Positions 166-51,500 of a stretch of DNA of 64,000 nt are shown here, piece by piece. Position 1 is the first letter of the stretch; every line of letters begins with the position of its first letter. The notes under the pieces are model-generated. The model had not been told where the DNA came from, did not search any database, and saw only the letters and a program-made list of their open reading frames with translations. The DNA comes from Panorpa germanica (lineage: Eukaryota > Arthropoda > Insecta > Mecoptera > Panorpidae), in NCBI GenBank assembly GCA_963678705.1, contig OY783208.1:17309486-17373485 (forward strand), written 5' to 3'. Made by a program: the position numbers and the translations under genes.

Positions 166-177
166 AATAAGATAGAT

Positions 178-7148: not shown

Positions 7149-7189
7149 TATAAAGTATAATATAATATATAGTGTAAAGTATAATATAA

Positions 7190-12839: not shown

Positions 12840-13075
12840 ACGGAGACGACAACTACAGAGTCTACAACCACTGAGTCGACAACCACCGAATCTACAACTA
12901 CTGAGTCAACAACCACTGAATCTACAACCACTGAGTCAACAACCACAGAGTCTACAACCACTGAGTCGACAACCACTGAATCTACAACCACTGAGTCAAC
13001 AACCACTTAATCTACAACCACTGAGTCGACAACCACTGAGTCAACTACAACTGAGTCTACAACAACTCAGACAAC
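12840..13075 (+). repeat. 15-bp coding minisatellite (TTTES) in exon 2 of copy 1
   Basis: This is the same 15-bp unit as in copy 2 but a shorter array of about 14 units. The codon at 13008-13010 is TAA where neighbouring units have GAA or GAG, a single G-to-T difference. After the stop the frame stays open to the exon end at 13140 (...NYPSDDYCPIEEIKT). Confidence 0.9.
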
Positions 13076-16000: not shown

Positions 16001-16899
16001 ACAACTTAACGAGAGGATACGCACAGTACAGTACGTTTAAGGTTGACTCCGTAGGAACAGGATTCAAATTAACGATCTCTGGTTACAGCGGAAACGCAGG
16101 TAGGTCCATTGTTTATTTCACAAGTTTATTCCTGTACTGACTTCAAGTGCTCGTGATGGACTGATCTTACCTTTATAAAGTGACATTATCAGAAGTGCCG
16201 TAGATTCAGTGCCGGATAAGGGCATGTGTTAAAGAAACAACAAAATATTTATCTTTCATTAAATATTTATAAATTTCTTTTATGATTAAAATGTTTTATT
16301 GTCTAAGTCACCTTGTAATTTTTGTACATCACATTAACTTGAATCATTTTGTTTCAGTTATTCATTCATTTTTTATAGTTTATAAAAGCATGTTCATTTT
16401 TCGCAATAGTATATTTCAAATAAAGGATTAAACAATTATCAATGGTTTTACAAAAGAAACATCAGCAAACTTATACACATTAAATTGGGTGTTTACTTAA
16501 TTGTATAAAATATAGACACCCAAACCTAAACAACATGTGTTAGGTAAATGATAATTAATTGATCCAATATTCTCTAGTAAACAAGAATTCCATGAAACAG
16601 TTAACACAACTGATAAATCAATATATATAGCTCTCAATTAATTAAACTTTAAAACGAAAAATGACCACATTCGATATCTCAAGATGAATTAAGAGTATGA
16701 AAAGGCATAATTAAAATATGTGTGAAATACGTATCCTACGATAATAGTCAATAATCGATAACACGATTATCGAAGTAATTAAATAAATTGAAAATAAATA
16801 AAGTAATGTTTTGAAAAAGAAATATTTTTTGAGGTTTACGTTGGGTTTCACAACTTAACTGGCGCTGTGTCTGTAAATTTACAAAGAACTCCGTGAACC

Positions 16900-18330: not shown

Positions 18331-18359
18331 TTCTTTTCATCTAAGACCTAAAGTTTAAC

Positions 18360-19260
18360 AGAAGTCAACTTAAGCGACAGCATCTGTTGACGTGGTCAAC
18401 TATGTGTTAGGCGCAGTATTATGTCAAAATAATTACTTGTTGTCCTACACCAATAGAACACTAGACCAGTTTGAAGTAAATTAATCCACGATGAAAAATG
18501 AAATGCTTTCCATCTTTCGTCCAATCAACGGACATTGCACCTGTATCAATTGTCATTAGAGCAGAAAATGTAGAATTTAATGCTCCACCACCTGTTAATC
18601 TACAACAAACCCCAGTAGTTGTGTTCCAATGCGAATCGAACAATGACAAATAGAAGATTTCAAAGAGCTGCTTAAGTAGTAACTTATGCAGAATAACAAA
18701 CTATCGAGGAATGCCTCGATAACTAGAAGCATAAAAAAAAATACGAATAAAAGCTAGATGAAAAACCAATGGCACACATGAGAAGGTTACAAACCAAAGG
18801 CGTTACGGACCCTGCAACACTGCCTATTACAGACAACCCATCAGAAAGAAACTGCTGTTCATACATTGTTTGGGGATAGTTTTATAGCGATGTATTTAAG
18901 TAAATAATTAGTATATTCTTATTCATCGCTCATTATAAGTATATGAACTGTCATAATTAAGGTACCATTGAAGGTACCAAATAATTTTTACCAGCAAAAC
19001 AACTCTACGTGTATTGGACAAACGTCCGAATCCTTTGCAGACATTATCGACCTAACAAAGCAATGCACCCTTCAAGGATATGACAAGATAAGACGAATTG
19101 GAAGGTGCTACCCGTGAAGAGCATCAAAGGAATACAACAGCTGGACCTGCATAACATCAACCAGAACAAATTTAAACAAATAGGAAGACTGTACCAGAAT
19201 TTAAAACCCATAAAGAACATAGAATTAAGTAATAAACACGTGCAGTTAATAATGCTGCAG
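18360..19260. other. Decayed coding-like sequence in intron 10 of copy 1
   Basis: Short open pieces with protein-like composition: plus strand 18500-18653 (VSIVIRAENVEFNAPPPVNL, then QQTPVVVF) and ~19110-19261 (KSIKGIQQLDLHNINQNK). 35830-36240 in copy 2 is homologous to the first. Frames are broken. Most likely a transposon relic of unknown type rather than an exon. Confidence 0.25.
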
Positions 19261-21722
19261 TAATTAAACTATGTGTCCCTAAAGTAATAGGTTTAACTTA
19301 GATATTTCCTAAGAGACAAAGAACGAGAAAATTAACAAAACAATTAACTTTAAATACAATCAGAGGACAATAAATTAGAATAGAGGAGTTAAGTAAAGTA
19401 AAGGAGTTAAGTTTGCTCCTGGAAACAGCAATTCCAGGTAACTGATGAACCATTTATTTAAAATATCAATTAAAGTTTGGAACAACATTCAGCATCTCAA
19501 GATGAAGCAATAGTATTAATTAGAAATGGCTCAATCGCTGCTGCTTAAGATTTAGACGCATAAGAGTTAATTCAATAGTTGCCCTAATTCACAGAGAACT
19601 GTAAATTACATAAGCCAATTATTCTAACGAAAAAATTAAATCAATGTTAAATTAAATAAAGGAATATTTTGGAACTTAATTAGAAAACTGAATGTCCTGT
19701 AGACCATAGGCCTGCCCATTTGGTGGACCTCGAAAAGAAACTGAATTACTTTTGAATTCAGTGGTAAGAGTAGCATTGGGTGCAATCAACAAATTATAAT
19801 AATAAAAAGAACATTAGTCGACGTAAAAACGCTGTACACGAGTGTACACATCATATGGAAAACAAATAACAACAGCTAGAAAATGAAAGATAAATGCAAA
19901 TGCCATTGTTTCTTTTTTCACATTTCTATTGATTTTCTAAATAATTGACCGGTTTGTTATTTGATAATAAATTGTTTTTAAAATATTATTTTTGACATCA
20001 TATAGTTTTATGTTCTTGAAAATATGATCTTCTATGGATGTAATTGTTATATGGAGTAACGCAAAAAAACATTAAACTTAACTGCTGAAATGCTATATAA
20101 CTAATCCTGGGATTGACTCTTTCAAATCCCGAATTCCCGGGATTTTGAATATGTTTTAAGATTGTATTCCCTAATTGTAGCCGACTCCAGCCGTACGGGC
20201 CGTGATAAGCGCAAATTACGAGATTCCAACGGACTGAGATATCTGGTGATAAGTTTAAAGGGCGGTGTTGTGGGCCGTACCTTAAAAAAGTTGCAATATT
20301 CCAGAAGAAATTAACAATTTTAATAGTTATTTTGGTCCCTTTTTTCGTTTCAGGGATTAACATTTATAAAAAACACTAATAATATGACGTCACATCAGTT
20401 TCACACCCTCTTTCCTTTTAACAATTGACGTCACTCGTATACAACAAACTTTACATGAGATAGCAAGTAGCTAGCTGTCTGGAGCAACGCATAAAATATT
20501 GATATTATAAATAGGATTAACAAGAATAAATAAAATCGATTACTTATTATTCTACAGACCTCTATAAGAATATTTAAAAATTAAAGAAAATAATTGAAAA
20601 TATTTCACAACTCAATTGCATTAAAATTATGTCCCCCTTTCATCACTAGACAAACCGAGCAACATCGGGTATTTGGAGTTGATGCCAAATAAACTTAACA
20701 CATAACACGCTTTGTGACGTGAACGTGTTATTAAATTGTAAATTATTGATTAAGTAATGTGGTTGAGGACGGAGCACGGAGTACGGAACACGTTGTGTTT
20801 AACTTTGGTAAAAAATTTAAATTAATTGACATTGAAAACAACAGAAAGTTTTATATTTTGTTTCCCCGTTGTCCATTGGTTGTAAAATAATTCCCCTCCG
20901 TTGCCCCGTCCCTTCGTGAATATGTTAACAACGGATGGTTGTGGTTGTGTGTGCCCAGTTGTTGGATTGTAAGTACCGCAGTGTTCTTGGTATTGTTTCA
21001 GGCGACTCGATATACAAAACCGGCTCCAGCTATGACGGCTGGTACCTGAACGGAATGAAGTTCACTACGTACGATAAGGACCAGGATAAGGCGCCGCATA
21101 ACTGTGCTGAGGAGCGGCACGGAGGCTGGTGGTATAATTACTGTGGTGCCAGGTAACTATCTCCACCTGCGACTGCGTCACGTGATGGTTCTCTGGAGTG
21201 TAAAATAGCCACCTCTTCCGTACCATTCGTACTATCCCTCTTTTACTTTAATTAAGGTAGTTGTGCCGCGACACTAATTTCTATACCTGTCCTACTCTTT
21301 CTATTACACGTCCTATATATAGGTTAACTTTTCTACGTTAATATTACATTAAGAAAAATATTCGTTTGACACAAATTTACTTTTATGTTCGCCGGCTGAT
21401 AAAGGTAGTTTGATTAGATAAAATAAAAATATGTAGCAACTATGTAGATACTCCCATCGCTTTGTTGCGGATTTAGATTTTTGCAATTTGTAATTTTCAG
21501 TGAATTAACTAAAATATATTTCAGTGCAGAGGTCATGGCAACATTCAGTTGTTGTCAGTTGGTAACCCTGATCCATTTATGTTCATCGGCTGTTTTTGTG
21601 TTGGTACTATTCTAACGTTGTGTTTTACTTCCAGCAATTTGAACAGTCCATACCATGATACGGCTGTGGATGATTTTTGTCATTTATTGGAGTTGTTTGC
21701 AACAAAACACATTCTCATCTAG

Positions 21723-28821: not shown

Positions 28822-31800
28822 ATGAAGGTGATACTCCTTGCCATCTTCATCGTATCTTGTGCCTCAACCACCAACGCTACGGTGAGTTTTTTTACTTTTA
28901 TTTGTTTGCTTTGACATTATTCGCTCTTCTGTTCAGCACCGACTAGGTTCTAGGTTCGACGTGGACTTCCTGAGGACTTCTCTTTTCTTAAAGAGCGCTG
29001 CCTGGTGCATCATTTCTTGTTTTCTTAAGTAATTTTCCAGTTGTAGATGTGGCATAGATTTATGTTCTTGTAGTAGCAACCCTCCACGGCAGATGTCAGC
29101 TGGGAGGTGATCAGCATTTGATTTATCTAATATTTTGAAACTTTTTTGTTGTAAACGTAGCTTAGTCTAGAATTTTGTGAAAATCAAAAAAGTGCCCGAA
29201 TTATTGGTATTTTGTGACAGCTGATGTCACTCTGTGGTATAACAGAGATGACAATTTAACATTTAATGTTTAAGCGGTAGAGGCATGTTTAATTTTTATA
29301 AAACTGTACTATACATAAGGTTTACAACTAGTATCTCTAATATCCGGGTATTTTTAAATAAGTCGCAACATTCTAGGAAGCGGTACTAATTGAAATAGTC
29401 ATTTTTGTCCCTCTGCTGCATTGTTAACTTATAGATTTTTGTACTAATTTTGTGTCGAGAAAATACAAAAAAAAACGCAAAACAGAAACTTAAATTTTAA
29501 ATAATTATGTGTTAATAAAAAGGGCGATAGACATATTGTCAGAGATGTGCATTTTTCAAATACAAATACTAAAAATGCAAATACCGATTTTCTATTTTGA
29601 ATATAAATACCTTTTAAGAATATAAACTTTTACAAACCTATTTGCAATTTGAAAAACGCAAAATACTTTTTTTTAATTTTTTCACTTCATAGTCCCTTTC
29701 AGATCCATAATCATTATTTTTCTATATTATAATGTTCCAAGTGTCTGTTTATAAGTTTATTTGTTTACGCGACTCGTATGGTGGCTCGAAAACGGCTGCA
29801 TGCATCTTTTTCTTATTTCCTATTCATAGAGAATAAAATTGCGTTCTCGGATTTCCTGGAAATCCAAAATATTAGAAAAACTAGAAAAAAACAACGGTTA
29901 TTTTTTGCTGTATAACTTTAAATTCGAAATATATAAAGAGTTAAAATTTGAGAAAATTAGGGACCCCGGTACGGAACTTTGGAGAAAGTTCATATTTTGG
30001 AATGGGTAATAATTAAGTTTATTATCAATAAGCAAAATTCAAAAACAAAATTTTATTTGGGGGCACGAAGCAATTGTCATAGAAATTTGAAATTTTGTAT
30101 AAAGCCTAATTTTGTAATCTAATTTACAAATCAAAATTTTTTTTCTGAATTAAAAAAAAAGTTTATCTAATAACGTATAAATTTTGAATATTAAAAAATA
30201 ATTATATTTTGCTGCAAGAAATATTTGATTATAGTCATTTTATATGAAAAAAAAATTTATATTAATATAGAACGAGTTAAATATATCTATTTCAAAATGG
30301 AAATAAAATTTGAAATTATTTTACGAATTATTTTACTGAATTCAAATAAAACATATGAAGCAGACTTTGCGATGGAGCAAAGAGGTCGCTTTACAAAGTG
30401 TGAGAGAGGGTGACAAGCACAAGTTCGTTGATTTATAATGAGACCTCATCAACGAAAAATGAAAGATACATTGTTTGAAGAAATAGTGGTATTAAAATCT
30501 TAAAGATAAATAGCATTTATATTAGAAACATAAAAAGAATTCTATTTTCTCAAAAGTATTTTTAAAATTCGTATTTTGCATTTTGCATTTCAATTCTTTT
30601 GAAAAGCATTTGTGCACATCTCTGGTTATAGTAGCCTATGCTTTCTTATAAACTCAAAAGATCTGACCACAAAAAATCATCTTCGTCTTTCAGTCGATTG
30701 AATTATCAACTTGGTGGTATCCTTCTGACTGGACAACGACTGCGTATACGACCACTGATTCTACAACCACTGAATTGACAACCACTGATTTACCACCAAC
30801 GGAGACGACAACCACAGAGTCTACAACCACTGAGTCGACAACCACCGAATCTACAACTACTGAGTCTACAACCACTGAGTCTACAACCACTGAGTCGACA
30901 ACCACTGAATCTACAACCACTGAGTCAACAACCACTGAATCTACAACCACTGAGTCAACAACCACTGAATCTACAACCACTGCGTCGACAACTACTGAAT
31001 CTACAACCACTGAGTCGACAACCACTGAATCTACAACCACTAAGTCGACAACCACTGAGTCGACAACCACTGAATCTACAACAACTGGGTCGACAACCAC
31101 TGAATCTACAACCACTGAGTCAGCTACAACAAAGTCAACAACAACTGAGACAACAACCCAGTCAGCTCTGCCGACATATCCATTAGATGATTATTGCCCT
31201 AATGAAGAGATAAAAACTTGTAAGTGATTAATTGGTTTTAAAGAACCCCCAATGCGTCCCTGTTAATGGACTACTGTCTTTTTAGGCGGGTATAAATACG
31301 GAGTTCCTGCAGCCAAAAGACAATTCCCCTACGTTGCCTTTCTGAAGAGCAGAAATGCCTATAAAGTCCAGTACTGCAGCGGAAGTCTAATTCATCCTCA
31401 ATGGGTGCTCACTTCCGCTTATTGCACGCTCCCGTATGTAAAATGTTTGATTTACTCTTTCTTTAGGTTGGAAACAACTCACAACTAAAGTAACTCATAT
31501 TCTAGTGACTCAAAAGTTGAGGTCATCCTGGGGGCCCTTGTTCCATTCGATGAAGAAGATCCGGACAGAGTCGTTGTGCATTCTGAAGTTGTCTACATCC
31601 ACCCTGGGTATCTTCCGTTATATAAAAATCCTAAAAACGACGTGGCTTTGATTAAATTGTCTAAACCAGTGACATCAGGTAAGATCATCAGATTCTGTAA
31701 TTCACCAAACTCCTGAGCGTCATTCATTGTGTTGATTGTTGCAGATGCTATCATCCCCATTGGCCTAAAAAGAGACGCTGGACCAATCTCTAAGGATAAC

Positions 31801-34800
31801 ATTACCTACGCTGGATGGGGAGCAGTTGGCTACGGTAGGTTTACTGGTTTACTAGGGATATTTAGAACGACCATACAAACTAAGTAAAACAGGAAGTGTA
31901 AAAATATTGGCACCACTGACAGGGCCTCGAAGATTCTATTGGCACCACTGACATGAGCAAATATCAGTAATTTTATGTTACTGGTTTCGTCCCCTGTCAT
32001 TAAAGTATATGCCCAAACAAAATTCTTGCTTAAGAGAAAATCTGGGCAGCATTCATAAAGGATCGATGTAGTAGAATCGAGTAATAATAATATCGAAGTT
32101 ACCCGTCGCTAAGCGACGTCTGTTGTGTATAGGTTGCTAATTTGTAGTTTACTAAGACTGGAATTTGATATGCAGACTGTAGAGGGGTCTAAAACCTTCC
32201 AAGTGGTACTACGTTTTATTTACATTTAATAAATTAATAAGTGAATTATTTAAATTTTTGGAAATTGAAAGAAACAATAATTATTTCAGAAACAATGACA
32301 TTCCCCAAAAATATTTGGATATATAAAGGGCCATGCGAATGTAAAAGCGAGGACGATATAAAGGAGTATAAAGATGCTGCCGGTGATAGTGAATTCTTCT
32401 GCTGTAGCTCAACAGAAAACTTTTGCTTTGTAAGTGCCCAAGTTACTTTTAACTCGCGATAGTTTTGTTGCAGATAATAAATTTATTTAAATCTTTAATT
32501 ATTACATTAATCTGTAATATTTTCCTTCTTCTAGATTCACAACGGGGGTGGTTTGCTCGTTGATGGCGTTCTAGTAGCAGTAATGAGCATGCGGTGCTTT
32601 TCCCATTGCCGCGACGGTAACGGAATCTTCACTAACGTCTACAACCATCTTCAGTGGATCGGTAACATATTGAATGCAGGTAGGCCTTAACTTACCTTTG
32701 TATATTATTCAATTATTTAATCAGATGGGAAAATCAGTTTCATCCCAGGTTGTTTGAAAACGTATTTTAACAATTGGGTTATCATCTACTTCTACACTTT
32801 ATGTCTCTTCATTCAATTCGCCTACTTCGCATCTGTTTTGCCCATTTCCACTTTCTTTAATCTCCGTCTTTTTTTTAGCAAGTTCTTTATTTTTTTTTGT
32901 GTTTGTCCTTTTTGCTTACCTACACAATCTACTGGACCTTCCCGCATCGTATTCCTATTATCTTTTTCTCTGTGCATTCTATGCAATGATCTCTATCTTG
33001 AATTGCGTCTAATATCTTCATTTCTTAATTCCTCTTGTATCTCACATTCCACTTAAATTGCTCTTTCGCCATCCTCTTCTCCTGAAGTACCCCTACATCT
33101 GTTTTATTCTGTTCTACTTCCAAGATTCTTCGTTCTTATTGCCATCTCACAACATATTCCACGCTCTCCTCTTTTAACCTACTGCCGTTTTTGGTACGGA
33201 CTGTTACACAACAAAGTTTCAAACAGATGCCATACTTATTCGTCAAATATTATTTAAAGCTGCCTTCTTTTCAATTAACAATTCTAATTTTTCTTAAGTC
33301 TTTCTTTACTTACTTTTTCCATCTCTCTGGTGTCTCCCAATAACTCTTGCGCCGCTTGGGTTGCTTCCAGAAGTTTGCTAGCCGTTCAGTTATTGTTCAT
33401 TTATGCAACGAAATTTAAATTTAAAAAAAAAGATATACTATAATGCGATGAACTCAGCTTTTTGCAATTTTATAACGAACACATTGCAAATTTAAACTCC
33501 CGTAACTTTGTTTAGCAGGTTGCATTCCAGACTACAAAGTTTACGGAGCGTGCAGTGATATTCCCGGATTCGTTTCTGGAGTTTATCTAATTCAACCCAA
33601 CAACGATGTGGACCCGTTTGAAGTTTTTTGCGAACATCGCGTGGACGGCGAGAAGTGGACGGTAATTACTCTGACGTCATTTCCTTCTAAGACATGACCT
33701 CTTACTTGCAGGGTCTTCCTACCAGGATCACGGTTAAAATCGTAACGATTAGTTTTGTTTAACCGATCGGATCTACTTATCCAAGTGGTCTAAGAGCAAT
33801 GAGTAACATCTTGCTAAACGTAAAATGTGGATATAACCATAAATATTTTTCTTGATAAGAAATCATTTATATAGAACTTTTATTTATTTCCTGGAAATGT
33901 AATGAAGATATTTTGCAGGTCATCCAGCAGCGCTTCAACAAGTCCGTTGACTTTTACAGAAACTATGCTAACTACACGATGGGATTTGGGTCGATATCTG
34001 GAAACCATTGGCTTGGACTGGAAAAGATCCACCAGGTGGGATCACGATTTGTTCTTATCCTTTTGTCATGATTTTCAGTAATACTAATTGTCAAAGGAAA
34101 TGTGATCACAGTTTAACTGTTACTTTCAGTTGACGAAAAATGGCGACCATGAACTGCTGGTGGAATTGCAGGCCCACAACTTAACGAAAGGATACGCCCA
34201 GTACAGTACGTTTAAGGTGGACTCCGCAGGAACAGGATTCAAATTAACGATCTCTGGTTACAGCGGAAACGCAGGTAGGTCCAATGTTTGTTCCGCACGT
34301 TTATTCCTGTACTGATAATCGTCAGTAATCGATAATACAATAATCAAATAAATTTAAAAAAAATAAAATAATGTTTTGAAAAAGAAAATATTTTTTGAGG
34401 TTTAAATTAGTTTCCACAACTTAACTGGTGCTGTGTCCGTGAATTTATAAAGGACTCTGTGTAACTAGCAATGCCAGTGAAGCTATATCTAAATATATTA
34501 ATAATTTATTGTAATGTTTCTGCCATTAGGCAGTGCATTCTGCTGGCTTAAATCATTAACTTACATATCATTGTGATTAATTACAGACTGTCTCACTATT
34601 CCCAATCCATTCAAAAAGAAATACATAATAAAACATATACATTTAAACTTCTCCTGCTTCTCCCTTCCTGCTACTCTGCCTCCTGATTCAACTCTAACAT
34701 TGCTTTTCTTTTTTTGCTCCACCTCGGTAACTCCGACATTAACCTCTTCTCTACACTGCCTTGTTATTATGAACTTTTTCTATTCTTTTCTGCTCCTCTA

Positions 34801-37800
34801 TGTCTCTGCTCCTTAGTTCATCTTTCACCATTGTGCCTTCTTCTCTTCCTTTCTCTGCCTCTTCTGTCGTCATTCTGTTTCCTTTTCATTCCTCCTTCTC
34901 CACTATCATTTCTACTCTTCTCCCTTATTTTCCTTAGGATTTCTTCTTTCGCATTTCTCTTTTTGTATAAGAATCTAATTGCCCTCCTTCTTATTTCGAT
35001 TCTTATTTTGTCCTGTTTCACCTTCCCATATATCTCGGCGTGCACATGTCCAGCCCTAATATTCATTTAACATATCTCTCATGGATTCTTTCTAATTTTT
35101 CTTGTTCCCTAAATCCTCATATCTATGTTCCGTACATCATCATACTCGTATTAGTCTATCAAACATCCAGAGCCTCTTTTGTATATCCTCACCTTTTCAC
35201 CTAATCTTTACACCATTCTTATCTCTTAACCCGCTTTCTTCGCTACCTCTTTTATCTGCACTTCTTTTCCGTGGTTTGTTTTTAAACGTGTAACATGGAT
35301 TCCCATAGCTTCTCAATGTACATCTACTTTTACATTTCCACTTTTTCTTTATCCTTTTTCTTCCCGTTTTTAGAACATCACACGTTTCGTTTTTTCCGTA
35401 TTCAGCTTCAGCGCTTTTCTGTGTAGGTATCTCCCAAGCCGTTCTATCATCTCCTTCAATTGTTCTTCCCTTTTCGCCAATATGACTATGTCGTCTGCGT
35501 AAGCTAAGGTCCTTATTTTTCTGTTTTCTCCGATTACCATCCTTCTCTTTTGACCCCTTTCCATTACTTTCTCCATATTAGATATGTCGATTGAAAATAG
35601 CGCATGGCTCAAAGAGCAACCTTGCCTCAGATCTCTGTATATCTAGTACTTTTCGTCTTATTAATTCCCAAAAGCCGTATCCCGTGTTCATTAGAATATT
35701 TCCTCTATAGTTTTTAACTTCGTGTACGTTTCCCTTTTCATTTATTGGAATTATTATTCCTTCTCTCCAGCTTTTTGTAAGTAGCCTTCCTTCCATTTAA
35801 AACTTAAAGTTTAACGTAAGTCAACTTAAGTGACGGCTTTTTGTTGACGTGGTCAACTATGTGCTAGGCGCAGTATTATGTCAAAATAATCACTTGTTAT
35901 CCTACATCAATAGAACACTAGACCAGTTTGAAGTAAATTAATCCACGATGAAAAATGAATTACTTTCTATCTATCGCCCAATCGACGAACATTGCATGAG
36001 TATCAATTGTCATTTGAGCAAAAAAATGTAGAATTTATTACTCTACCACCTGTTAATCTAAAACAAACCCCAATAGCTGTGTTCCAATGCAAATCGAACA
36101 ATCACAAATAAAAGATTTCAAAAAGCTGCTTAAGTGGTAACACATAAAAACAGAATTACCCCTATGGAATAACATACTATCGATGAATGCCTCGATAACT
36201 AGAAAACTAAAAGAAAAATACAACAAACAGCTAGATGAGTGTAACCCTCCTTCTTTTTATAGTAGTTTACATTATTTTAAGAGAACCATTATATCTTACT
36301 CTCCTGCGAAGGGTTCTTTATGGTGAACTGTTTCACCTTGTGTCAGATGACCGAGTTAATTATGACTGTTTTATATTCTAACAGGACTTAATAATTCTTC
36401 TAATAATATTATAAATATGTATTAGACTTTACTATCTCTGCAACGAACTATCACTTTATCGTACCGGTTAGAACAATGTATACATTAACACTTGTTATTC
36501 TTTATTCAACATTCAACTATTTAATACATTTAATTACTTTATTGGAAAATTGACAATTTTTTTTAATAATTCTTTAGTAACTTTCTTAACCAAACGGTCA
36601 TAGTGACGTGGTCTTTTAACTTCTGGGGACCGACTGCCTAGGCTTCCCATTTTTCTAGGTTTATATAGTTTAAAAAGTCTTTGTTCGAATATATAATCTC
36701 ATTTGAACTCTAGCTATGTTTATTTTAAATCCAAATATGGTTTCGTCAACACTTCTTTGAATTTTGATATATGGCTATAATATAAACAATATTTGAAACT
36801 CTCCGTGCTATGAACAAAAAGTTTAGTTAATGAATATTTCTTTTGAAAGTTAATGTTAATACTACAGCGCCAGTTTGACGACTAATACAAATTATAATAA
36901 TATGCGTTATGGTTTTCTTGATAAAGAAATAGTTAGTCTAAATATTACGCCACCAGTTAGCGTCTTAAAATCATTAAAAATCTACGTTTTAGTTTAAATA
37001 TGAACCTTTACACTGGTTCCTAAATAATTAGTAATAACATACCCCGGTTAAGATAGACACTTGAAATAACAAAAAATGCCGGAGAGCCAAATATTGGTGA
37101 AGAGCTGGGGTTTACCATTACAAATAAAGTTTTAAAAGTCTCCATCGATTCTATGTGTGCTTCAAAAGTTATTCGGGGTCAAAGGTCAAAATTTAAGGTT
37201 TTTTAGATTTTTCTCGAAAACGGTAAGTTTTATCAAAAAAAAAACCTCAAACCAAAGTAGTAGATCTTAAAATTCTCTACAAAAATAGTCCTTATGATTT
37301 TTTTCCTAAGAGTTACCATTCCTGAGATATCGCGATTTTAACAGTCGCGATTCTCAGATACATGATATGCATACATTTCCATGCCACCTGTGAGGTAGTG
37401 TACTTGGCGCGTTTTTTTTACCGTGGTTTCACCTGTAGGCTTACTCCACTAACTGTCATGACAATTTTAGGATAATTTAAGACTATTCAACACTTGTATC
37501 GAGTATACTATCAAGTTCATTTTTTATACATCTTTTATAATTTATAATTCAATTTTACAAATTTCTAAATATTTCAATAATCACTAAATTATTTTGAATC
37601 ACTTAACAAGAATTTAGTATTAACAGGAAAAGTTTTAACCACATCTGATATTTCTCTATTGAATTAAGACTATGTAATAAAAACGAATTAGATACGTTAA
37701 AATGAACAGGTTTAGTAGTCCATGGGCATTTAATATCTCAATCCGGCACTGCATAGATAATAAATAATAATCCACCGCCTGATAGAAGTTCAAGGATGAT

Positions 37801-39405
37801 TCTGTGGTTGTATTACGGTTGTTGACAGGAAATTGTTTGTTGTTTCAAGTTTTTATGATTTTGTTATTTTTAACATATATGTAGCATGTGGTGTCGTGAC
37901 ACCATAGCTGTTCATTGGTCAATGACACAACATAAATATCGTGACTAGCCCTCTACTACTTATTCCTTATTCTACAGACTTCTTTAAGAATATTAAAAAG
38001 AAATTAAGAATCAAATAGAAAATAATTAACAACCCAATTGTTTTAAATTATGTCCCCCTTCCATCACTAGAGAAACCGGGCAACACCGGGTATTAGGAGT
38101 TGAAAACTAATAGACTTAACACATAACACACTTTGTGATGTGAACGTGTTAACTATGGATAGTTGTTGTTGTGTCTGTCCAGCTGTTGGTTTCTTTGTAC
38201 CGCAGTGTTCTTGTTATTATTTCAGGAGACTCTATGACCTACAACAAAGAAAACCTGTGGACCACAAACGGAATGAAGTTCACTACATTCGATAAAGATC
38301 AGGACGAATGGGCGGACGGTAGCTGCGCTCACTACTACCAAGGAGCCTGGTGGTACAATTGGGGTTCGATCAGGTAACTATCTCCACCTGCGTCTGCGTC
38401 ACGTGACGAGTGATATGACCATACTATAAACTGTAAGGTTGCCACCTCATCGGGCGCCCGGGCCTATACACATTATCTCTAGGTCACTGGTTTACTTATT
38501 CCTACTCCGGTTTTGCGAGTTCTGTCACAAAACACACAATTATTCATTTCCATGTTACAGCATTTTCTCCTCGGCAGTTCAGAAATATGAATCCGTTAAA
38601 TATTCAAACTTTTATCAAATTTTAACATATTTATTAAACTAAAAATAGGACATTATACTTAAACTAGTAAAACATTTTGGAACTTTTGCTTTAATTAAAG
38701 TAGTTTTGCCACGACACTAATTTCTATAGCTGTCCTACTCTTTCTAATACACGCCCTATAATTAGGTTAACTTTTTTACGTAAATATTATGTCAGATTCC
38801 ATTAGGAAAAAAATTTGTTTGACATAAATTTAAAAGTAAGTAACACTTTTTATGCAAGATTATAAAATGTTACATATTAAAGTAATATATTAGCAAAAGA
38901 TTTTATGTGTATGTTACATTTATTTAATGACAGTGTAACAATATTTTTTTAAACTTCGCTAAAAAATTAAAATATAACAATTTTTTTTTTTATTTTAGAA
39001 TTTGACGCGATTTTAAAAACAAGGCATTATTTGCCTGAAGTTAATTTATTTTATTTGAATTTGGTTTATTATATTTATATCATTAAGAAATTCTAGCACT
39101 TTTTGAATTTTTTCTATATTGTTTGAAACTATGTCCTTAATTTATGATTTTCAGTGAATTGACTAAAATATATTTCAGTGCAGAGTTCATGGCAACATTC
39201 AGTTGTTGTCAGTTGGTAACCTTGATCCATTTATGTTCACCGTCTGTTTTGTGTTGGTATTATTCCAACGTTGTGTTTTACTTGCAGCCTTTTGAATAGT
39301 CCATACCTTGATACGCCTGTGGAAACACGCCAGGCAATGCACTGGAAACACGACTTCAACCGCCGCGCCTTAAAGACTGCAAGAATGTTAATCAGAAAAA
39401 AATAA
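28822..39405 (+). CDS. Copy 2: secreted mucin-linker / inactive trypsin-like (SPH) / fibrinogen-related domain protein, 650 aa
   Basis: Twelve exons: 28822-28881, 30694-31219, 31286-31433, 31506-31678, 31745-31834, 32290-32429, 32535-32679, 33519-33661, 33919-34035, 34130-34274, 38226-38373, 39288-39405. All introns are GT-AG and the frame is open to TAA at 39403. Residues 1-20 are a signal peptide (MKVILLAIFIVSCAS...). Residues 21-195 begin SIELSTWWYPSDW and carry TTTES repeats. Residues ~196-427 match the trypsin fold (QFPYVAFL, CSGSLIHPQWVLTSAYC, NDVALIKL, AGWGAVGYG, GIFTNVYNHLQWI). Residues ~428-650 match a fibrinogen C-terminal domain (SGVYLIQP, FEVFCE, VIQQRF..SVDFYRNY, WLGLEKIHQ, DKDQD, GAWWYN, LKTARMLIRKK). 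Catalytic His is Tyr241, Asp290 is kept, Ser is Asn382, and no R-IVGG activation site is present, so catalysis is not expected. The likely role, by inference from insect SPHs and FREPs, is extracellular recognition or scaffolding. This is the best-preserved copy. Confidence 0.85.
29728..30412 (+). mobile_element. Helitron-family relic in intron 1 of copy 2
   Basis: Collinear with 11740-12440 with only scattered differences and small deletions, at the same place in the intron. This shows the insertion predates the split of copies 1 and 2. Confidence 0.55.
30775..31150 (+). repeat. 15-bp coding minisatellite (TTTES) in exon 2 of copy 2
   Basis: Roughly two dozen tandem 15-bp units of the type TCTACAACCACTGAG encode Thr-Thr-Thr-Glu-Ser with scattered single-base variants (TTTAS, TTTKS, TTTGS). 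This is a proline-poor mucin-like segment that is probably O-glycosylated and extended. It separates the signal peptide and a Trp-rich N-terminus from the protease-like domain. Such arrays expand and contract by slippage or unequal exchange, which fits the difference in length among the three copies. Confidence 0.9.
32104..32118 (-). repeat. Helitron-type hairpin relic in intron 5 of copy 2
   Basis: CGTCGC-TAA-GCGACG perfect hairpin, the same stem as the Helitron 3' ends, without a CTAG beyond it. Also present at 44130-44144 in copy 3 and degraded (CATCGCTAAGCGACG) near 13939 in copy 1. Confidence 0.45.
34480..35800 (-). mobile_element. Non-LTR reverse transcriptase relic in intron 10 of copy 2
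   Basis: Minus-strand open pieces: 35796-35578 (WREGIIIPINEKGNVHEVKN, an RT N-terminal motif) and 35612-35370 (IRTLAYADDIVILAKREEQL, the YADD catalytic motif), then 35066-34818 from the C-terminal part. The pieces are in different frames, so the copy is dead. Same family as 9410-10010. Confidence 0.65.
36240..38150. other. Remaining intron 10 of copy 2
   Basis: No gene. A segment from ~36232 to ~37050 is absent at the matching place in copy 1 ('gctagatga' junction) and may be an insertion whose ends I could not define. 37100-37330 has a repeat-like 'ggggtcaaaggtcaaaatttaagg...ctcgaaaacgg' block. 37800-38170 is shared with 48710-49090 in copy 3. Confidence 0.35.
38980..39132 (-). mobile_element. 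Short 3'-end relic of a retroelement in intron 11 of copy 2
   Basis: The T-run at ~38980-38991 and the following ~140 bp match 49904-50070 in copy 3, the 3' end of the minus-strand RNase-H-bearing retroelement. The rest is deleted, and the flank resumes at 'aatttatgattttcagtg'. Confidence 0.6.
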
Positions 39406-39649: not shown

Positions 39650-40531
39650 CAATGAATGAACTAAGAGAAATTGAAATAACCAGCCAAATTACAAATTGGT
39701 TAATGTCATATTTAGAATTGAGATCTATTTATGTGAGAAATGAAGATAATTTAATAGGACCATTTACGTGAAATAGAGACCTACCTCAAGGATCTACTCT
39801 TAGTACACTGTTATACACAATATATTCTAAAGACATTTCTAAATTAAAAGACGACCACTCATTTATTTTACAATTTGCAGATGATATTGTTTTATATAGT
39901 ATAGGCCCATCCATAGAATGTTTAAGGAAGAGAATTAATAAGAAATTATGCAAATTAAGAGACATATTAGACAAAATTGAATTAGAAATCTCAGTAGACA
40001 ATCTCAAGCTGTCATATTTACTAGACACAAAATTATATCAAATGTGAGGATAATATATTATAACAAAAATATTATTATATTAAATAGAGCAAAATTATTA
40101 GGTATTTGGTTTGACTGTAAATCTACTATGAGCTTTGAAATTGATAAAATTATACTTAAATAAAAAGATACTTAAGTCTAGTTGGAAGTAAATGGGGAGC
40201 TCATCTTATCTTTTTACTGCAAGTTTATTAAGGAGTTATAAGTTCACATTTAGAATATTTAAGTATATTAATTAGTACAGGTTCCAAATCAAGATTATTA
40301 AAATTGAAAAAAATTCAATACAGAAGTTTAAGAATCGTTTTAGATTGCATGACTTCAACTCCAACTCATATACTTCAAGCTGAATTTATTATAGCTCCAT
40401 TGCAATTTAGAAACCAAATAAATTTTATGTTTAATGTGAATCATTATCGAAATATTGCAATAAATAAGGAAATTTTTTTAAAGCTAATGTATTCAACATT
40501 AACTTTTACTTTTGTTCGATATTTGGTTTAA
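39650..40531 (+). mobile_element. Jockey-type RT relic between copies 2 and 3
   Basis: Plus-strand translation shows DLPQGSTLSTLLYTIYSKD and LQFADDIVLYS, the RT motifs B/C, and later KIQYRSLRIVLDCMTSTPTH of the thumb. It contains an in-frame TGA at ~39769 and several frameshifts. It is truncated at both ends; homology to the copy 3 downstream flank stops where it begins (~39660). Confidence 0.65.
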
Positions 40532-41624: not shown

Positions 41625-41684
41625 ATGAAGGTGTCAATCCTTGCCGTCTTCATTGTAACTTGTGTCTCAACCACCAACGCTACG
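41625..41684 (+). CDS. Alternative first coding exon (signal peptide) of copy 3
   Basis: ATG at 41625 encodes MKVSILAVFIVTCVSTTNAT, followed by the donor gtgagt at 41685, the same phase and length as the first exons of all copies. It lies 930 bp upstream of the second first exon at 42555. Each is preceded by its own copy of the conserved upstream block. Both could splice to exon 2 at 43160. Either copy 3 has two promoters or one of the two is a non-functional duplicate. The predicted signal peptide is slightly different from that of exon 42555 (MNVLIIAIFIVTSAS). Confidence 0.6.
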
Positions 41685-42554: not shown

Positions 42555-45500
42555 ATGAATGTGTTAATCATCGCCATCTTCATCGTAACTAGTGCCTCAA
42601 CCACCAACGCTACGGTGAGTTTTTTACTTTTATTTGTTTCTTTTGACATTATTCGCTCTTCTGTTCAGCACCGGCTATCTAGGTTCGACGTGGACTTCCT
42701 GGGGACTTCTCTTTTCTTGAGGAGCGCTGCTTGGTGCACCATTTCTTATTCTCACTCTGTTGCATAACAGATATAGCAATATGTTTAAGGGGTTGAGGCA
42801 TGTGCTACTTTCTATAAAATTGTGCTACTTATTTATAAAGTTTACTTTCAGGATCTCAAATATATAGTTATTTTTAAACAAGTCGAAACATTCTAGGAGA
42901 CGGTACCAATTGAAAGAGTCATTTTTGTCCCTCTACTAAATTGTTAATCTATGGGTTTTTGTACTAATTTTGTGTCGAGAAAAAACTAAAAAGTTTTAAG
43001 CGGCAAAACATAAATTTAAATTTTAAATAATTATGTGTCGATTGATTTTTAAACAAATAAAAGAGGCAATAAACACATAGGTATATATGTTTACCTATAT
43101 ATCAAATTGGTAAACATATATAAATTCAAAAGATCTAACCAGAAAAAACTGTTTTTCAGTCAAAAACCACTAAGTCCACAGTATCTATGACCTCTCAGCC
43201 TACAGACTTCAAAATCCTGTCGCAGTCAGTCTCGTATTCATCAGATGATTATTACCCTATTAAAGAAATAAAAACTTGTAAGTGATTAATTGGATTTAAA
43301 GAACCCCCAATGCGTCCCTGCTAATGGACTACTATCTTTATAGGCGGGTATAAATACGGAGTTCCTGCAGCCAAAAGACAATTCCCCTACGTTGCCTTTC
43401 TGAAGAGCAGAAATGCCTATAAAGTCCAGTACTGCAGCGGAAGTCTAATTCATCCTCAATGGGTGCTCACTTCCGCTTATTGCACGCTCCCGTATGTAAA
43501 ATGTTTTATTTACTCTTTCTTTAGGTTGGAAACAACTCACAACTAAAGTAACTCATATTCTAGTGACTCAAAAGTTGAGGTCATCCTGGGGGCCCTTGTT
43601 CCATTCGATGAAGAAGATCCGGACAGAGTCGTTGTGCAATCTGAAGTTGTCTACATCCACCCTGGGTATCTTCCGTTATATAAAAATCCTAAGAACGACA
43701 TGGCTTTGATTAAATTGTCTAAACCAGTGACATCAGGTAAGATCATCAGATCCCGTAATTCACCAAACTCCTGAGCGTCATTCATTGTGCTGATTGTTGC
43801 AGATGCTATCATCCCCATTGGCCTGAAAAGAGACGCTGGACCAATCTCTAAGGACAACATTACCTACGCTGGATGGGGAGCAGTTGGCTACGGTAGGTTT
43901 ACTGGTTTACTAGGGATATTTAGAACGACCATACAAACAAAGTAAAACAGGAAGTGTAAAAATATTGGCACCACTGACATGAGCAAATATCAGTCATTTC
44001 ATGTTACTGGTTTCGTCCCCTGTCATTAAAGTACATTCCCAAACAAAATTCTTGCTTAAGAGAAAATCTGGGCAGCTTTCATAAAGGATCGATGTAGTAG
44101 AATCGAGTAATAATAATAACGAAGTTACCCGTCGCTAAGCGACGTCTGTTTTGTATAGGTTACTAATTTGTAGTTTACTAAGACTGGAATTTGATATGCA
44201 GACTGTAGAGTGGTCTAAAACCTTCCAAGTGGTACTACGTTTTATTTACATTTAATAAATTAATAAGTGAATTATTTAAATTATTGGAAATTGAAAGAAA
44301 CAATAATTATTTCAGAAACAATGACATTCCCCAAAAATATTTGGATATATAAAGGGCCATGCGAATGTGAAAGCGAGGACGATATAACGGAGTATAAAGA
44401 TGCTGCCGGTGATAGTGAATTCTTCTGCTGTAGCTCAACAGAAAACTTTTGCTTTGTAAGTGCCCAAGTTACTTTTAACTCGCGATAGTTTTGTTGCAGA
44501 TAATAAATTTATTTAAATCTTCAATTGTTACATTAATCTGTATTGTTTTCCTCCTTCTAGATTCACAACGGGGGTGGTTTGCTCGTTGATGGCGTTTTAG
44601 TGGCAGTAATGAGCATGCGGTGCTTTCCCCATTGCCGCGACAATAACGGAATCTTCACAAACATTTACAAACACCTGCGATGGATCGGTAACACCTTGAA
44701 TGCAGGTTGGTCTTAACTTTTTTTAGAATATTATTCAAATATTTAATCAAATTTATCCCAGGTTATTTGAAAACGTCTTTCAACAATTATGGTTTATCTA
44801 CTGTGTTATCTTAGAGCGGCCCTTATTTTTAAAGTTAAAATTTTTTTTGCGGCACCCTCCCATTTGGTGCCAATACCTAAAAATATGATCTGTGTAAAAT
44901 TTTAGGTCAATCGGATAACGGGAAAACGTGCCTCAAGAGCCTCGAAAATTGAAAAATCACAGATTTTCTTTTAAAATTCTTATATCTTGAGAAATACTAA
45001 TTTAATGCAAAAACTTGTTACGCAAAAGTTGTAGATCTAATAAAAATACATATTTAATCATCTATTACTTTTTCTCGTATAACTAACAATTTTCGAGAAA
45101 TACGTGAAAATCACGATTTTATATATTTATTTTACAAAATATTTATTATACACAGAAAAGTGTATAATAAAATAATATAATTAAATAATATAGTATAATG
45201 TATTTAATTATTATTTCGCAAAATAAAAAATAATTTTAAAAAATGTATGGGATTTTTTAATTTTCCGGGCTCTTGGGGCACCCTTTCCCTTTATCCGATT
45301 GATCTGAAATTTTACACCTATTATTTTTTCATGCAATGGAACCAAACTGAGGGGTGCCGCAAAAGAAAAACTCAAAAATAATTTTCACTAAGAGTAAATA
45401 TGGGCCACTCTCTGTTATCTGTTTCATTACTTTCGTCTATTCTCCACCTGTTTTGCATCGTTGCACCATTTTACTCCATTTAGTTCCTACCTTCCTCGTC

Positions 45501-48500
45501 TGCTACCTTTCAACAAATCCTTCATGTCCATTTTTGTCTCCATCTTCACTGCGCCCTCTCACAATCTAGAGGACATTCCCTCATTGTATTCTAAAAGTTC
45601 CAAAGGGATCGCGTACTTATACGTCAAATATTAATTAAAGCTGCATCCATTAGGCCATTCCTTTCTATTGACACCCGTTCTTTTAATTTGCAATTTTAAT
45701 TTTTCTTAAGTCTTCCTTCTGTTGTCATTTCCATCTCTCTGGTGTCTCCCAATAATTTTAGCACCTCTTGCTTTGTTTCCAGAAGTTTCTTAGCCGTTCA
45801 GTTATTGACCATTTTTGCTACGAAATTTAAATTTTAAAAAGATATACTCAAATGTAATAACCTCAGCGTTCAGTTTTCCAATTTATAACGAACACTAACA
45901 TTTCAAATTTAAACTCCCGTAACTTTGTTTTGCAGGTTGCATTCCAGACTCTAAAGTTTACGGAGCGTGCAGTGATATTTCCGGATTCGTTTCTGGAGTT
46001 TATCTAATCCAACCCAACAAGGATGTAGAACCGTTTGAAGTTTTTTGCGAACTTCGCGTGGACGGCGAGAAGTGGACGGTAATTACTCTGACGTCATTTC
46101 CTTTTAAGACATGTCCCACTTGCTTGCATCCTAACGATTGCTTTCGTTTAACACTGATCGAATCTACTTATCTAAGTGTTCTAAAAGCAATGAGTAACAC
46201 CTTGCTAAACATAAAATGTGGATATTACCTTACATATTTTTCTTGATAAGAAATCATTTTTATATAACTTCAAGATTTATTTCCTTGAAATGTAATGACG
46301 ATATTTTGCAGGTCATCCAACAGCGCTTCAACGGGTCGGTTGACTTTTACAGAAACTATGCTAACTACACTATGGGATTTGGACCAATGTCTGGAAACCA
46401 TTGGCTGGGATTGGAAAAGATCCACCAGGTGAGATCACGATTTGTTCTTATCCTTATGTCATGACCTTATGTCATGACTTTATCCTTATGTTATGTCATG
46501 TGATCACAGTTTAACTGTTACTTTTAGTTGACGAAAAATGGCGACCATGAACTCCGGGTGGAATTGCGGGCCCACAACCTAACGAGAGGATACGCACAAT
46601 ACAGTACCTTTAAGGTTGATTCTGCGGAAACAGGATTCAAGTTAGCGATATCTGGTTACAAAGGAAGATCAGGTAGGTCCAATGTTTATTCCACACGCAA
46701 GACTTACTGTACGTGGCTCACAAATTTGTTTGACATTCGGGAGATGTTTAGTGAGATGGATTGATCTTCTGTATACCGACTCTGGATGTTTTCAAAGTGA
46801 CATTATTAGAAGTATCGGAGATACATAGCCGCAATAAAGCGATAATCAAATAATTCATTAATCTCTAGTAAACAATAATTTCACGAAACTGTCAACACAA
46901 CTGACAAATCAATTTATTTAGCTACTAATTAATTAAACTTTAAACCAACAAATGACCACATTCGTTATCTTATGATGAATCAGGACTATGAAAAGGCATA
47001 ATTAGGACTTACATGAAATACGTATCCTACGACAATCGTCAATAATCAAATAAATTTAAAATAAATAAAGTAATGTTTTGAAAAAGAAAATATTTTTTGT
47101 GGATTATGTTGGGTTCCTTAACTTGAAGAAAGTTGAACCTATGTCCGAATATATTATGAATTTATTGTAATGTTTTTACCATTAAATTTTACATTCTTCT
47201 GCTTTAAATGATTAAATTATATATTATTGCCATTAGTTACATACTATCTCCCTATTCCCCACTTCTTTCAGTAGAAACAATAAAAATATAAAACAAAACT
47301 TTTACATTTAAACCCCTACAGCTTCTCTCTTCTTGCTACTCTCTCTTCTGTTTCTACTCTTTTCTCGCTCCATCTCTCCACCTCCGTCATTCACCTTCTC
47401 TCTACATTACCTCCCTTTAATAACTGCACAATCTTTTTTCCCCTCCCTTCAATAACTCACAAATCTTCTTGTATTTTTATTGTATTTGTTATTATGAATT
47501 TTTTCCATTCTTTTCTGCTGCTGTATGTCTCTGTCTCTGTTCGTCTTTTACCATTGTGCCTTCTTATCTTCTTCTCTTTGCCTCTTCTGTCGCCATTCTG
47601 TTTCTTTCAAAGTACTCCTTTCTTCTTTTCGTTCCTCCTTCTCCACTATCCGTTCTACTCTCCTCTCTTATGTTTCTTAGAATATTTCCTTTCGCTTTTC
47701 TTATTTTATACTAGAATCTATTTGCCCTCTTTTTTAATTCGATTCTTATTTTGTCCCTTTTCACCTCCTCCACTACCATATATCTCGGCGTGCACATGCC
47801 CAGCCGTATTATTCATTTGACATATCTCTTCTAGAGTCTTTCCAATTTCTCTTGCTGGCTCCACCCCCATATCTTTGTTCCGTACATCATCACCTCGATA
47901 TTAGTCTATCAAACATCCAGATCATCTATTGTATATATTCACTTCAATTTTTCACTATTGAATTTAGACGATGTAATAAAAATGAATTAGATACTTTAAA
48001 ATGAACAATAAATGAAGTAGTCCATGGGCATCTAATATCTCAATCCGGCACTGCATAGATAATAAATAATCATCTACTGCCTGATAAAAATTCAAGGTCA
48101 TTGAACAAGTGCGGCTGTTTGGGGAGTTTGGACCTTATAGAGATCTATAGGCTGGCTAGGGCGTATCTGCGATCTGTCGGCGGTATCCAAGTTCTCGAAC
48201 GGCAAATGTCGCTCAGTTCCTTTCAATAGCTTAGGGTGCGCACAATTTTTTATGAAGGACTTTTTTAGATTACATTTATTTTAAAACTACACTATTGAAT
48301 TACATATAAATTTATTAAATATTTTAATTGATAAAAATACTAGTTACGACACTAAGTAAATGTAACTCGCGGTTTAAGTTATTTATAATAATATGTGTAA
48401 TTATTATTTTCTGTTTATGCACCAAAAATTATGCGTGCTCTCGGTTTAAAAGTTGAGTTAATAAGACCGAAATACGTAGAACATATACGTAGTGTCGTCT

Positions 48501-51500
48501 AGTAGAAATGGATCGTGAAACAAAGGATGTTTACATAAGCAAGATTAGGGTTTGCTCACATAGAGAAGTATATATGTTGTATATAAAAACAAATAGGCAT
48601 AAAATATAAATGAATTAAAACAAAGAAATCTTAAAACTAACATTAATTAAAAATAAAGGCAAGATATTGATATACAAATATGAATATTGCATGCATTTAT
48701 GAACAGCGGCGTTGATTCTGTGGTTGTATTACGGTTGTTGACAGGAAATTGTTTGGTGTTTCAAGTTTTCATGATTTTATTATTTTTAACATATATGTAG
48801 CATGTGGTGTCGTGATACCACACAACGCACGCTGTTCATTGGTCAATGACACAACATAAATAACGTGACTGGCCCTCTACTACTTATTCCTTATTCTACA
48901 GACTTCTTTAAGAATATTAAAAAGAAATTAAGAAACAAATAGAAAATAATTCACAACCCAATTGTTTTAAAATTATGTCCCCCTTCCATCACTAGAGAAA
49001 CCGGGCAACACCGGGTATTAGGAGTTGAAAACAAATAGACCTAACACATAACACACTTTGTGACGTGAACGTGTTAACTATGGATAGTTGTTGTTGTGTC
49101 TGTCCAGTTGTTGGTTTGTTTGTACCGCAGTGTTCTTGGTATTGTTTCAGGAGACTCTATGACCTACAACAAAGAGAACCTGTGGACCACGAACGGAATG
49201 AAATTCTCTACATTCGATAAAGATCAGGACGGATGGAAGGACGGTAGCTGCTCTGATTACTACCAAGGAGCCTGGTGGTACAATTGGGGTTCGATCAGGT
49301 AACTATCTCCACCTGCGTCTGCGTCACGTGACGAGTGATATGACCGTACTCTAAACTGTAAGGTTGCCTCCTCATCGGGCGCCCGGGCCTAGACACATTA
49401 TCTCTAGGTCACGGGTTTACTTATTCCTACTCCGGTTCTGCGAGTTCTGTCACAAAACACACAATTATTCATTTCCATGTTACAGCATTTTCTCCTCGGC
49501 AGTTCAGAAATATGAATCCGTTAAATATTCAAACTTTTATTAAATTTTAACAAATTTATTAAACTAAAAATAGGACATTATACTTAAACTAGTAAAATAT
49601 TTTAGAACTTTTGTTTTAATTAAGGTAGTTGTGCCGCGACACTAATATCTATAGCTGTCCTTCTTTTTCTAATACACGCCCTATAATTAGGTTAACTTTT
49701 TTACGTAAATATTATGTCAGATTCCATTAGGAAAAAAATTTATTTGACATAAATTTAAAAGTAAGTAACACTTTTTATGCAAGATTATAAAATGTTACAT
49801 ATTAAAGTAATATATTAGTAAAAGATTTTATGTGTATGTTACATTTATTTAATGACAGTGTAACAATATTTTTTTAAACTTCGCTAAATAATCAAAATAT
49901 AACTTTTTTTTTTTTTTTATTTATTTTGGAATTTGAGGTGATTCCAACAACTAGGTCATATTCGCCTGAAGTTAATTGATTTTAATTAAATTTTGTTTAT
50001 TTTGTTAATATCATTAAGAAATTGCAGCAATTTTTGATTGTTTTTTCGGGATTGTCTGAAAGTATGTCCTTTAGTTCACCACTGATGTTGTGTTTTGTTC
50101 TTTGCGTTTGATATTGTGGGCAGGTTATTAGTAGATGATGGACTGTTATTTGCGTCTGACAGTTGCTGCACTGCGGATCTGTTGTTTTACTGAATAAATT
50201 TTGCTGCGTCAATATCGTATGTCCTGTTCTTAGCCTGATGATGACTTTTTCGAATTGTCTAATGCTTTGATAAGAAGTGTCCCACTTGTTTTTATTTACC
50301 CTAATTAATCTCAATTTGTTGTTACTTATTTGCGTCCAGCACTGGTTTTGAATTTTCCTCATACCATTTTTATACCTTTCTATTAAAACTAAGTATAATA
50401 AGGCAGATATTGGAGTTTCTTCTATAGCCAACTTGGCAGCTTCATCTGCTGACTCGTTCCCCGATATAAGACAATGGCCAGGTATCTACATCAGTTTAAT
50501 GTTGTTTTCTTTAAAATGCTTAAATTAAATTGTATTTTTGTAACGATAGGGTTGATTTTTGCCTTTCTATTATTAGTGATAGCTATTATAGCAAGTTTTT
50601 ATTTATAATGTACTCAATTGAGGAGCTTATTGCCAAGAGTTCAGCTGTATAATTATTGTTAATATTTAAGAGTTTAAATTTAAAACTGTTTTGGTCGGTT
50701 ATAAGCGCAACGTTGTATCTGGTGCTTTTGATCCATCTGTATATATTATTTCATAATTTTTGTAGTTGTCTTTAATTTCGTTAAACAATTGTCTGTATGT
50801 CTCCCGTGAAGTAGAACTTTTTCTGGAAAGTTGGCTATATTTTGTTATATTAATAACTGAGACTAGATTCCATGGGAGCAATGTATTTTGAACAGGTAAC
50901 TTTATCGTGTCTGATGAAGTATCTATATTTATGTTTACTTCTGCTATTATATCTTTAATCAGAAGACTAAAAGGTAACAAAATTAAGAGCTAAAAAACAT
51001 AATATCATGTGCTGGATTATTGGGTGTAGTTTAAATCCTTATATCATATTTTAAAATATTTAGTTCTCTTTTAAGATTTAATGGTATTTCTCCAGTTTCG
51101 GCTAGTAGACTTGGTATCGGGGTAGTCCTGAATGCGCCAGTAGCTAGTCGTAGGGTTGAGTTTTCTATTACATTTAATTTTTTCAAGTATCTTTTTTTTG
51201 CTGTGGATAGTATGATGCTGCGACTGTAGTTGCTAGTTTTTTGATGACATTATCTGGCTAGAAGAAATCAAAGTATGTTGCGGTAAATATATGTTGCATA
51301 TTATAACGGTTTAAGTTGCGATAATTTGTAAATCCGTTTGTAGAACTATCTCCCTAAAATAAAAGTTTTCATGGATGACAGTCGTCACTCCCCCTGATGC
51401 CTGCAATCCTAGAGTGCACTGGCGTAGCTAGGTATGAGCGAGTCGGTGCAGTGCACCTTGGGCCCTCAGACTTTTGTAACTTATATTTATATTTTAACGG

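Follow-up and report, generated by a model that had tools for sequence, protein, structure and literature searches.

A gene family of the scorpionfly Panorpa germanica predicted to join a dead trypsin-like domain to a fibrinogen-related domain

The window analysed here is a stretch of 64,000 nucleotides from chromosome 5 of the scorpionfly Panorpa germanica (Mecoptera; C5:17309486-17373485), and a protein-to-DNA search showed that it holds three tandem copies, A, B and C, two of them intact, of a gene in which a trypsin-like block is followed by a fibrinogen-related domain (FReD). The middle one, copy B, lies at positions 28822-39405 of the forward strand and consists of 12 exons in one reading frame of 650 amino acids. 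The borders were checked exon by exon; each of the 11 introns runs from GT to AG, and no stop interrupts the frame between the ATG at 28822 and the TAA at 39403-39405. A sequence-only reading of this DNA had drawn the same 12 exons, including the junction between exons 7 and 8 at 32679/33519, and every border stands where it was placed. Both domains that it named were found on the 650-residue product in the Pfam scan, far above cut-off: Trypsin (PF00089) at residues 201-421 (7.3e-24, profile positions 4-220 of 220) and Fibrinogen_C (PF00147) at residues 446-648 (5.9e-52, profile positions 15-219 of 221). These were the only two at an expectation (E) value of 0.001; CLIP, collagen, CUB, EGF and CCP were absent from the Pfam scan of copy B, and an NCBIfam scan gave a single weak match, below its cut-off. 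It is likely, judging from the predicted exons, that this fused architecture is the main structure of the gene.

Exon 1 (28822-28881) carries the start codon and a putative signal peptide (MKVILLAIFIVSCASTTNAT), judged by eye and matched by similar first exons in other copies. Exon 2 (30694-31219) encodes a linker rich in Thr, Ser and Glu that ends in phase 1; it contains a 15-base-pair (bp) tandem repeat, translated as TTTES, in 28.4 units at 30733-31158, and the mucin-like linker of the sequence-only reading is borne out. The trypsin fold takes up exons 3 to 7 (31286-31433, 31506-31678, 31745-31834, 32290-32429 and 32535-32679), a block that is in phase 1 at either end and in which exon 6 is the most diverged exon among the copies. 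Intron 7 (32680-33518) separates the two domains. The FReD starts at the phase-1 acceptor of exon 8 (33519-33661) and continues through exon 9 (33919-34035), the most conserved exon, with a mean amino acid identity of 0.90, and exon 10 (34130-34274). Exon 11 (38226-38373) holds the putative calcium and ligand-site region and is very variable, and exon 12 (39288-39405), with the C-terminus and the TAA stop, is variable among copies too. The FReD of copy B can be aligned with those of ANGPTL2, FIBCD1, MFAP4 and the ficolins.

Alignment to kallikrein-7 shows that the trypsin domain of copy B has Tyr in place of His57 (TSAYC for TAAHC, exon 3), His in place of Asp194 and Asn aligned with Ser195 (HNGGG for DSGGP, exon 7), with Asp102 kept in the motif NDVALIKL of exon 4. 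These losses imply that neither catalysis nor normal zymogen activation is to be expected, and by its residues the domain is catalytically dead, as the sequence-only reading had it. The change is not confined to copy B. The Ser195 motif is gone in all 18 distinct copies with exon 7 visible, and His57 is replaced by Tyr in 14 of the 15 with exon 3 visible, in counts from which duplicates were removed by hand and for which loci were chosen by similarity to copy B. The locus L035 (C5:17.14 Mb) keeps His57 (TSAHC) without Ser195, so the loss of the serine is the more widely shared change. In the FReD half, the exon 11 stretch FDKDQDEW lines up with FDRDQDLF and LDRDHDVY in FReDs of solved structure and may be an acidic calcium-site loop of the DxD type, as in lectin-type FReDs.

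Copy A (10805-21720 on the forward strand, its end placed approximately, by hand) has the same exon order, but its TTTES array is interrupted by a TAG in frame and its exon 12 is diverged and shortened; it is probably a pseudogene. Copy C (42555-54442, forward strand) is, by gene model and Pfam, an intact 12-exon paralogue of 514 amino acids, with a short exon 2 (43160-43277) that is without the TTTES array. About 0.9 kb 5' of its first exon the protein-to-DNA search found another exon-1-like signal-peptide exon with its own donor (41625-41684, forward strand), which may be an alternative first exon or a remnant. Copies B and C have no coding differences in exon 3 and a synonymous divergence (dS) of 0.44 in exon 10; such uneven divergence makes them patchworks and suggests gene conversion.

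The genome searched has 464,208,970 bases in 249 contigs; the published genome, in the part of the report consulted, has 464,228,243 bases in 254 scaffolds (PMC11464959), and that part speaks of no gene annotation. The trypsin half of copy B gave 291 exon matches, and the 150 of these 291 that were listed merge into at least 86 loci, 66 on C5, 13 on C1, two each on C10, C136 and C4, and one on C7. Each of the 86 has at least one matching exon, and a minority of them were checked for open frames and an FReD. An FReD profile gave 226 matches, 150 of which were listed, with 150 of 998 candidates scored. FReD matches are very numerous in this genome, on C5 from about 5 to 24.8 Mb and also on C8, C16 and C10. 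Among the matches listed, at least 30 of the 86 trypsin-type loci are followed on their own strand, no more than 12 kb downstream, by an FReD match, five have one only upstream and none has one on the opposite strand; random placement gave a mean of 1.6 and a maximum of 6 in 500 trials, as compared to the 30 observed. Copy B itself falls outside the 30 among the matches listed, which means that the pairing is undercounted.

Individual loci (L numbers) were studied in 20 ten-kb regions picked round FReD matches and in four further regions picked by trypsin matches. Trypsin-type exons lie upstream on the same strand in nine of the 20 (L010, L012, L016, L017, L018, L020, L021, L022 and L027), the trypsin part of L010 being the end of exon 7 only, and FReD exons 8-10 lie downstream in all four of the regions picked by trypsin. 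Four copies on two chromosomes gave complete open 12-exon models with both Pfam domains above cut-off: B, C, L018 (C5, 24.76 Mb) and L041 (C1, 1.13 Mb). Besides the 5.9e-52 of copy B, three further copies have Fibrinogen_C E values of 8.8e-55 to 1.2e-56. Copy C, L018 and L041 repeat the exon order, the phases and the splice sites of copy B, so its gene model is not due to chance. Furthermore, the distances of the trypsin and FReD halves correlate among 13 copies (r 0.61, p 0.0002), and so do those of exons 7 and 8 among 12 copies (r 0.46, p 0.005). A chance in-frame join of two unrelated genes was also considered; the recurring order, phases and splice sites, together with the co-varying halves, rule it out. 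By its predicted structure the trypsin-FReD gene is a member of a multigene family, so far found only in Panorpa. The sequence-only reading was right to place a pseudo-trypsin and an FReD in one frame behind a Thr/Ser-rich linker, but did not foresee the family or its members without array, with a second Thr/Ser repeat or without trypsin.

In sister loci on chromosome 5 the place of the trypsin block is taken by something else. Sushi-like (CCP) modules precede the FReD in L009 (4020-5164) and L014 (2796-5757), where three of six stretches matched Pfam Sushi above cut-off, one just below it and two not at all, one of the non-matching stretches being the module that adjoins the FReD in L014. The candidate exons for these modules are in phase 1 at both ends, and the border that they share with FReD exon 8 is also of phase 1. 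By its type of FReD, L028 belongs with these two loci, which were the ones covered by the Sushi scan. In L015 (3170-9905; C5:16.74 Mb) a signal exon and a long Thr-rich exon 2 lead into FReD exon 8 in frame with no trypsin between; the exon 2 donor is weak, and it is the sole frame-keeping donor in the stretch searched. In L016 and L039 exon 8 opens with a second Thr/Ser repeat. The simplest account of this swapping of modules would be that exons were shuffled at introns of phase 1.

The pooled ratio of nonsynonymous to synonymous divergence (dN/dS; each exon compared in 7 to 15 copies, with stop-containing candidate exons left out) is, for exons 3 to 12 in order, 0.32, 0.40, 0.48, 0.39, 0.24, 0.31, 0.18, 0.25, 0.55 and 0.39. 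All values (0.18-0.55) are below 1, and these exons are under purifying selection on average. The lowest mean amino acid identities are those of exon 6 (0.55), exon 11 (0.60) and exon 12 (0.62); within the FReD, exons 11 and 12 have diverged most, and they stand out when compared with intron divergence. In a wider copy set, using alignable pairs only, dN and the divergence of the upstream and downstream introns were 0.065 against 0.205 and 0.134 for exon 3, 0.115 against 0.108 and 0.143 for exon 4, 0.121 against 0.234 and 0.277 for exon 7, 0.197 against 0.258 and 0.228 for exon 8, 0.121 against 0.246 and 0.173 for exon 9, and 0.178 against 0.142 and 0.193 for exon 10. The corresponding values are 0.318 against 0.106 and 0.107 for exon 11 and 0.300 against 0.090 and 0.132 for exon 12. 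For exon 11, dN exceeds the upstream-intron divergence in every one of the 47 pairs that could be aligned, out of 91 from 14 copies, of which three are of the Sushi-FReD type. However, dS is also higher than intron divergence around exons 4 and 7-12, so that intron divergence is probably underestimated. In nine copies the distances of exon 11 are unrelated to those of exons 8 (r 0.13), 9 (r 0.10) and 10 (r -0.10), and they track those of exon 4 (r 0.49, p 0.005) and of exon 6 (r 0.50, p 0.009). Copy-to-copy exchange may have contributed to the diversity of exon 11, and so may diversifying selection.

The explanation that we put forward, giving it as a whole an even chance, is that these genes encode a secreted recognition protein with a pseudoprotease scaffold, acting in an innate setting. 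Exon shuffling would have brought the trypsin block (exons 3-7) to the phase-1 junction that is occupied by Sushi-like modules in the sister genes. In the secreted protein, signal peptide, Ser/Thr-rich spacer, dead trypsin and FReD would follow one another, the spacer serving to keep the two apart. The FReD would bind a surface ligand with a specificity that varies among copies, chiefly through exon 11, and the pseudoprotease half, neither activatable nor able to cut, would offer partner proteases or cofactors a surface for docking or regulation. The likeliest setting would be innate recognition in the haemolymph or at an epithelial surface, and the case for an immune role, drawn by analogy, seems to us evenly balanced. 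A bolder and more doubtful idea, which we offer tentatively, is that the trypsin-type loci, at least 86 of them, form a germline repertoire of single-chain lectin-pseudoprotease receptors, a covalent counterpart of ficolin-MASP, in which the ligand-site exon is diversified by exchange between copies and a shared phase-1 intron is the place where one effector module (dead trypsin, Sushi or none) is exchanged for another.

A number of findings weigh against a fused protein used for recognition. The exon 7 donor (NAG/GT[TA]GG) has a mean score of 1.6, the weakest of the nine scored (those after exons 3-11, with a matrix trained on the other donors) and in the 86th-99th percentile among all GT sites in the window, exon 6 being close at 2.0. 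An in-frame stop lies three codons past this donor in 12 of the 14 modelled copies, copy B included, and exons 3-7 can be skipped in frame. Eleven of the 20 regions picked round FReD matches are without trypsin exons inside their 10 kb, and only 7 of the 15 pairs of single trypsin (3-7) and FReD (8-10) exons correlate at p < 0.05, which shows that the copies are patchworks. Of the two Cys residues that flank the WWY motif of the FReD binding site, copies B and C, which read SC..WWYNWG, have lost the second; both are kept in 10 of 13 fully visible exon 11s of the wider family. Because of this loss copy B is not placed among the lectin-type (ficolin/tachylectin-like) FReDs, and what the sequence-only reading called a complete FReD is complete in length and not in every functional feature. 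The synonymous divergence of exon 11 is high as well (0.58), so that exchange of exons may explain more of its diversity than amino acid selection does. Positive selection as the sole cause is not claimed here, with dS also high and intron values taken from alignable pairs only.

Could one locus give several products, with transcripts that mainly end after exon 7 (in GRP or GWP and a stop, or the like) or skip exons 3-7, and with the fusion rare or absent? The weak donor with a stop close by and the symmetrical phase 1-1 block would suit this, as would L015, trypsin-free yet able to keep the frame. A conserved terminal exon at exon 7 was looked for and is unsupported: the start of intron 7 has a conservation of 0.80, as compared to 0.76-0.92 for the other intron starts measured, and this ordinary value means that the stop shows no sign of special constraint. 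Among the 14 modelled copies, eight have AATAAA/ATTAAA 1 to 15 times in intron 7 and six (B, L018, L020, L027, L040 and L041) not at all, and the intron is just 219 bp long in L020. Of 15 copies, 14 retain the GT of the donor and one, L012, has GC. In none of the 14 modelled copies does an in-frame start codon stand immediately ahead of exon 8, which with the 219 bp of L020 speaks against a hidden first exon of a separate FReD gene in intron 7, the longer introns not having been searched systematically for a spliced one. The intron 7 figures are rough for L017 and L027, which have poor exon 8 models, and for L016 and L039, where the start of exon 8 has since been moved upstream. We consider it quite unlikely that such products prevail; comparison among the copies backs the join of exons 7 and 8 claimed in the sequence-only reading, with alternative transcripts possible beside it. 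A non-immune secretion of the same genes, whether salivary or nuptial, of the gut lining, or of egg or seminal fluid, would turn the changes in exon 11 into a trace of sexual or dietary conflict. Scorpionfly males produce salivary nuptial gifts, the Thr/Ser-rich arrays of varying length, with the second array in L016 and L039, fit a mucus-like secretion, and a literature search on Panorpa, salivary and immune found, by title, nothing on Panorpa. However, insect FReD proteins are mostly discussed in connection with immunity in the portions of the literature consulted, and the intact copies B, with an array, and C, with none, show that a long mucin part is not essential; we hold this setting to be unlikely. 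That the copies are mostly degenerate, a dead gene being carried along by a spreading segmental repeat and hardly any member, or none, still working, appears highly improbable. It would agree with the stop and diverged end of copy A, with the partial look of L010, L017 and L027, and with the small share of the loci checked for open frames, but four copies are complete and open and the pooled dN/dS is below 1 in exons 3-12, a value that the omission of exons with stops helps to keep low.

Other features of the window were also observed. Positions 1-7200 consist of repeated sequence in direct and inverted copies with about 75-93% identity, in the printed part of the self-comparison. Open stretches resembling reverse transcriptase, with YADD and FADD motifs, are found at 35373-35796 on the reverse strand, within intron 10 of copy B, and at 39772-40528 on the forward strand, just after copy B; judged by eye from the list of open reading frames, these suggest remnants of non-LTR (long terminal repeat) elements.

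The protein searches covered about 5.8 billion proteins by shared 5-residue words with length limits, so that distant fusions could be missed. Residues 186-650 of copy B had 218 matches; the 120 of these that were listed all have Fibrinogen_C and none has PF00089, and eight of the nine best are Anopheles FReD proteins with 42-46% identity. The trypsin part of copy C had one match, a Megaselia protein of 30% identity with Trypsin and PF12032, a CLIP family. The sequence-only reading, which knew of no description of the architecture, agrees with this, as no protein match listed (120 of 218 for copy B, and the one for the copy C trypsin) has both domains. Nor was the trypsin-FReD pair described in the parts of the literature searched, which included PMC11871716, PMC9835746 and PMC8418000 and few subscription journals, and a literature search on Panorpa found no work on fibrinogen-related genes of the scorpionfly order. 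If expressed as predicted, the genes would form a large family in one insect order with a pair of domains that we found described nowhere. Expression would also make the family a natural test of what happens when a dead protease is tied to a recognition domain and when recognition is diversified by swaps of modules and ligand-site exons. With its stop only three codons beyond the donor, exon 7 also gives a hint of the way in which fusions may originate next to what was once a last exon.

Among known systems, the insect FREP/FBN proteins, a family expanded in mosquitoes, share with the Panorpa genes a single C-terminal FReD and lineage-specific expansion; unlike them, the Panorpa genes have a pseudo-trypsin and a Ser/Thr-rich spacer ahead of the FReD. 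Insect serine protease homologues such as masquerade, PPAF-II and SPCLIP1 of Anopheles share the secreted trypsin fold without catalytic residues, secretion being a prediction here. Their known partners are CLIP or other non-FReD domains, and copy B differs from the CLIP-domain homologues in that its Pfam scan holds no CLIP. Biomphalaria FREPs, a large and diversified family with immunoglobulin (Ig) domains and an FReD, belong to another phylum and also have a changed N-terminal partner, Ig there and trypsin here. A possible working analogy is the vertebrate ficolin with MASP or MAp44, where an FReD is brought together with a protease or a protease-derived regulator. There the partners are distinct proteins that contain collagen, CUB and CCP parts, whereas copy B would be a single chain with a dead protease and without collagen, CUB or CCP, Sushi being found only in the sister loci L009 and L014. 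These Sushi-FReD genes of Panorpa itself, among which L028 is counted by its FReD type, agree with copy B in their FReD exon borders and phase-1 junction, with Sushi-like modules where copy B has the trypsin block.

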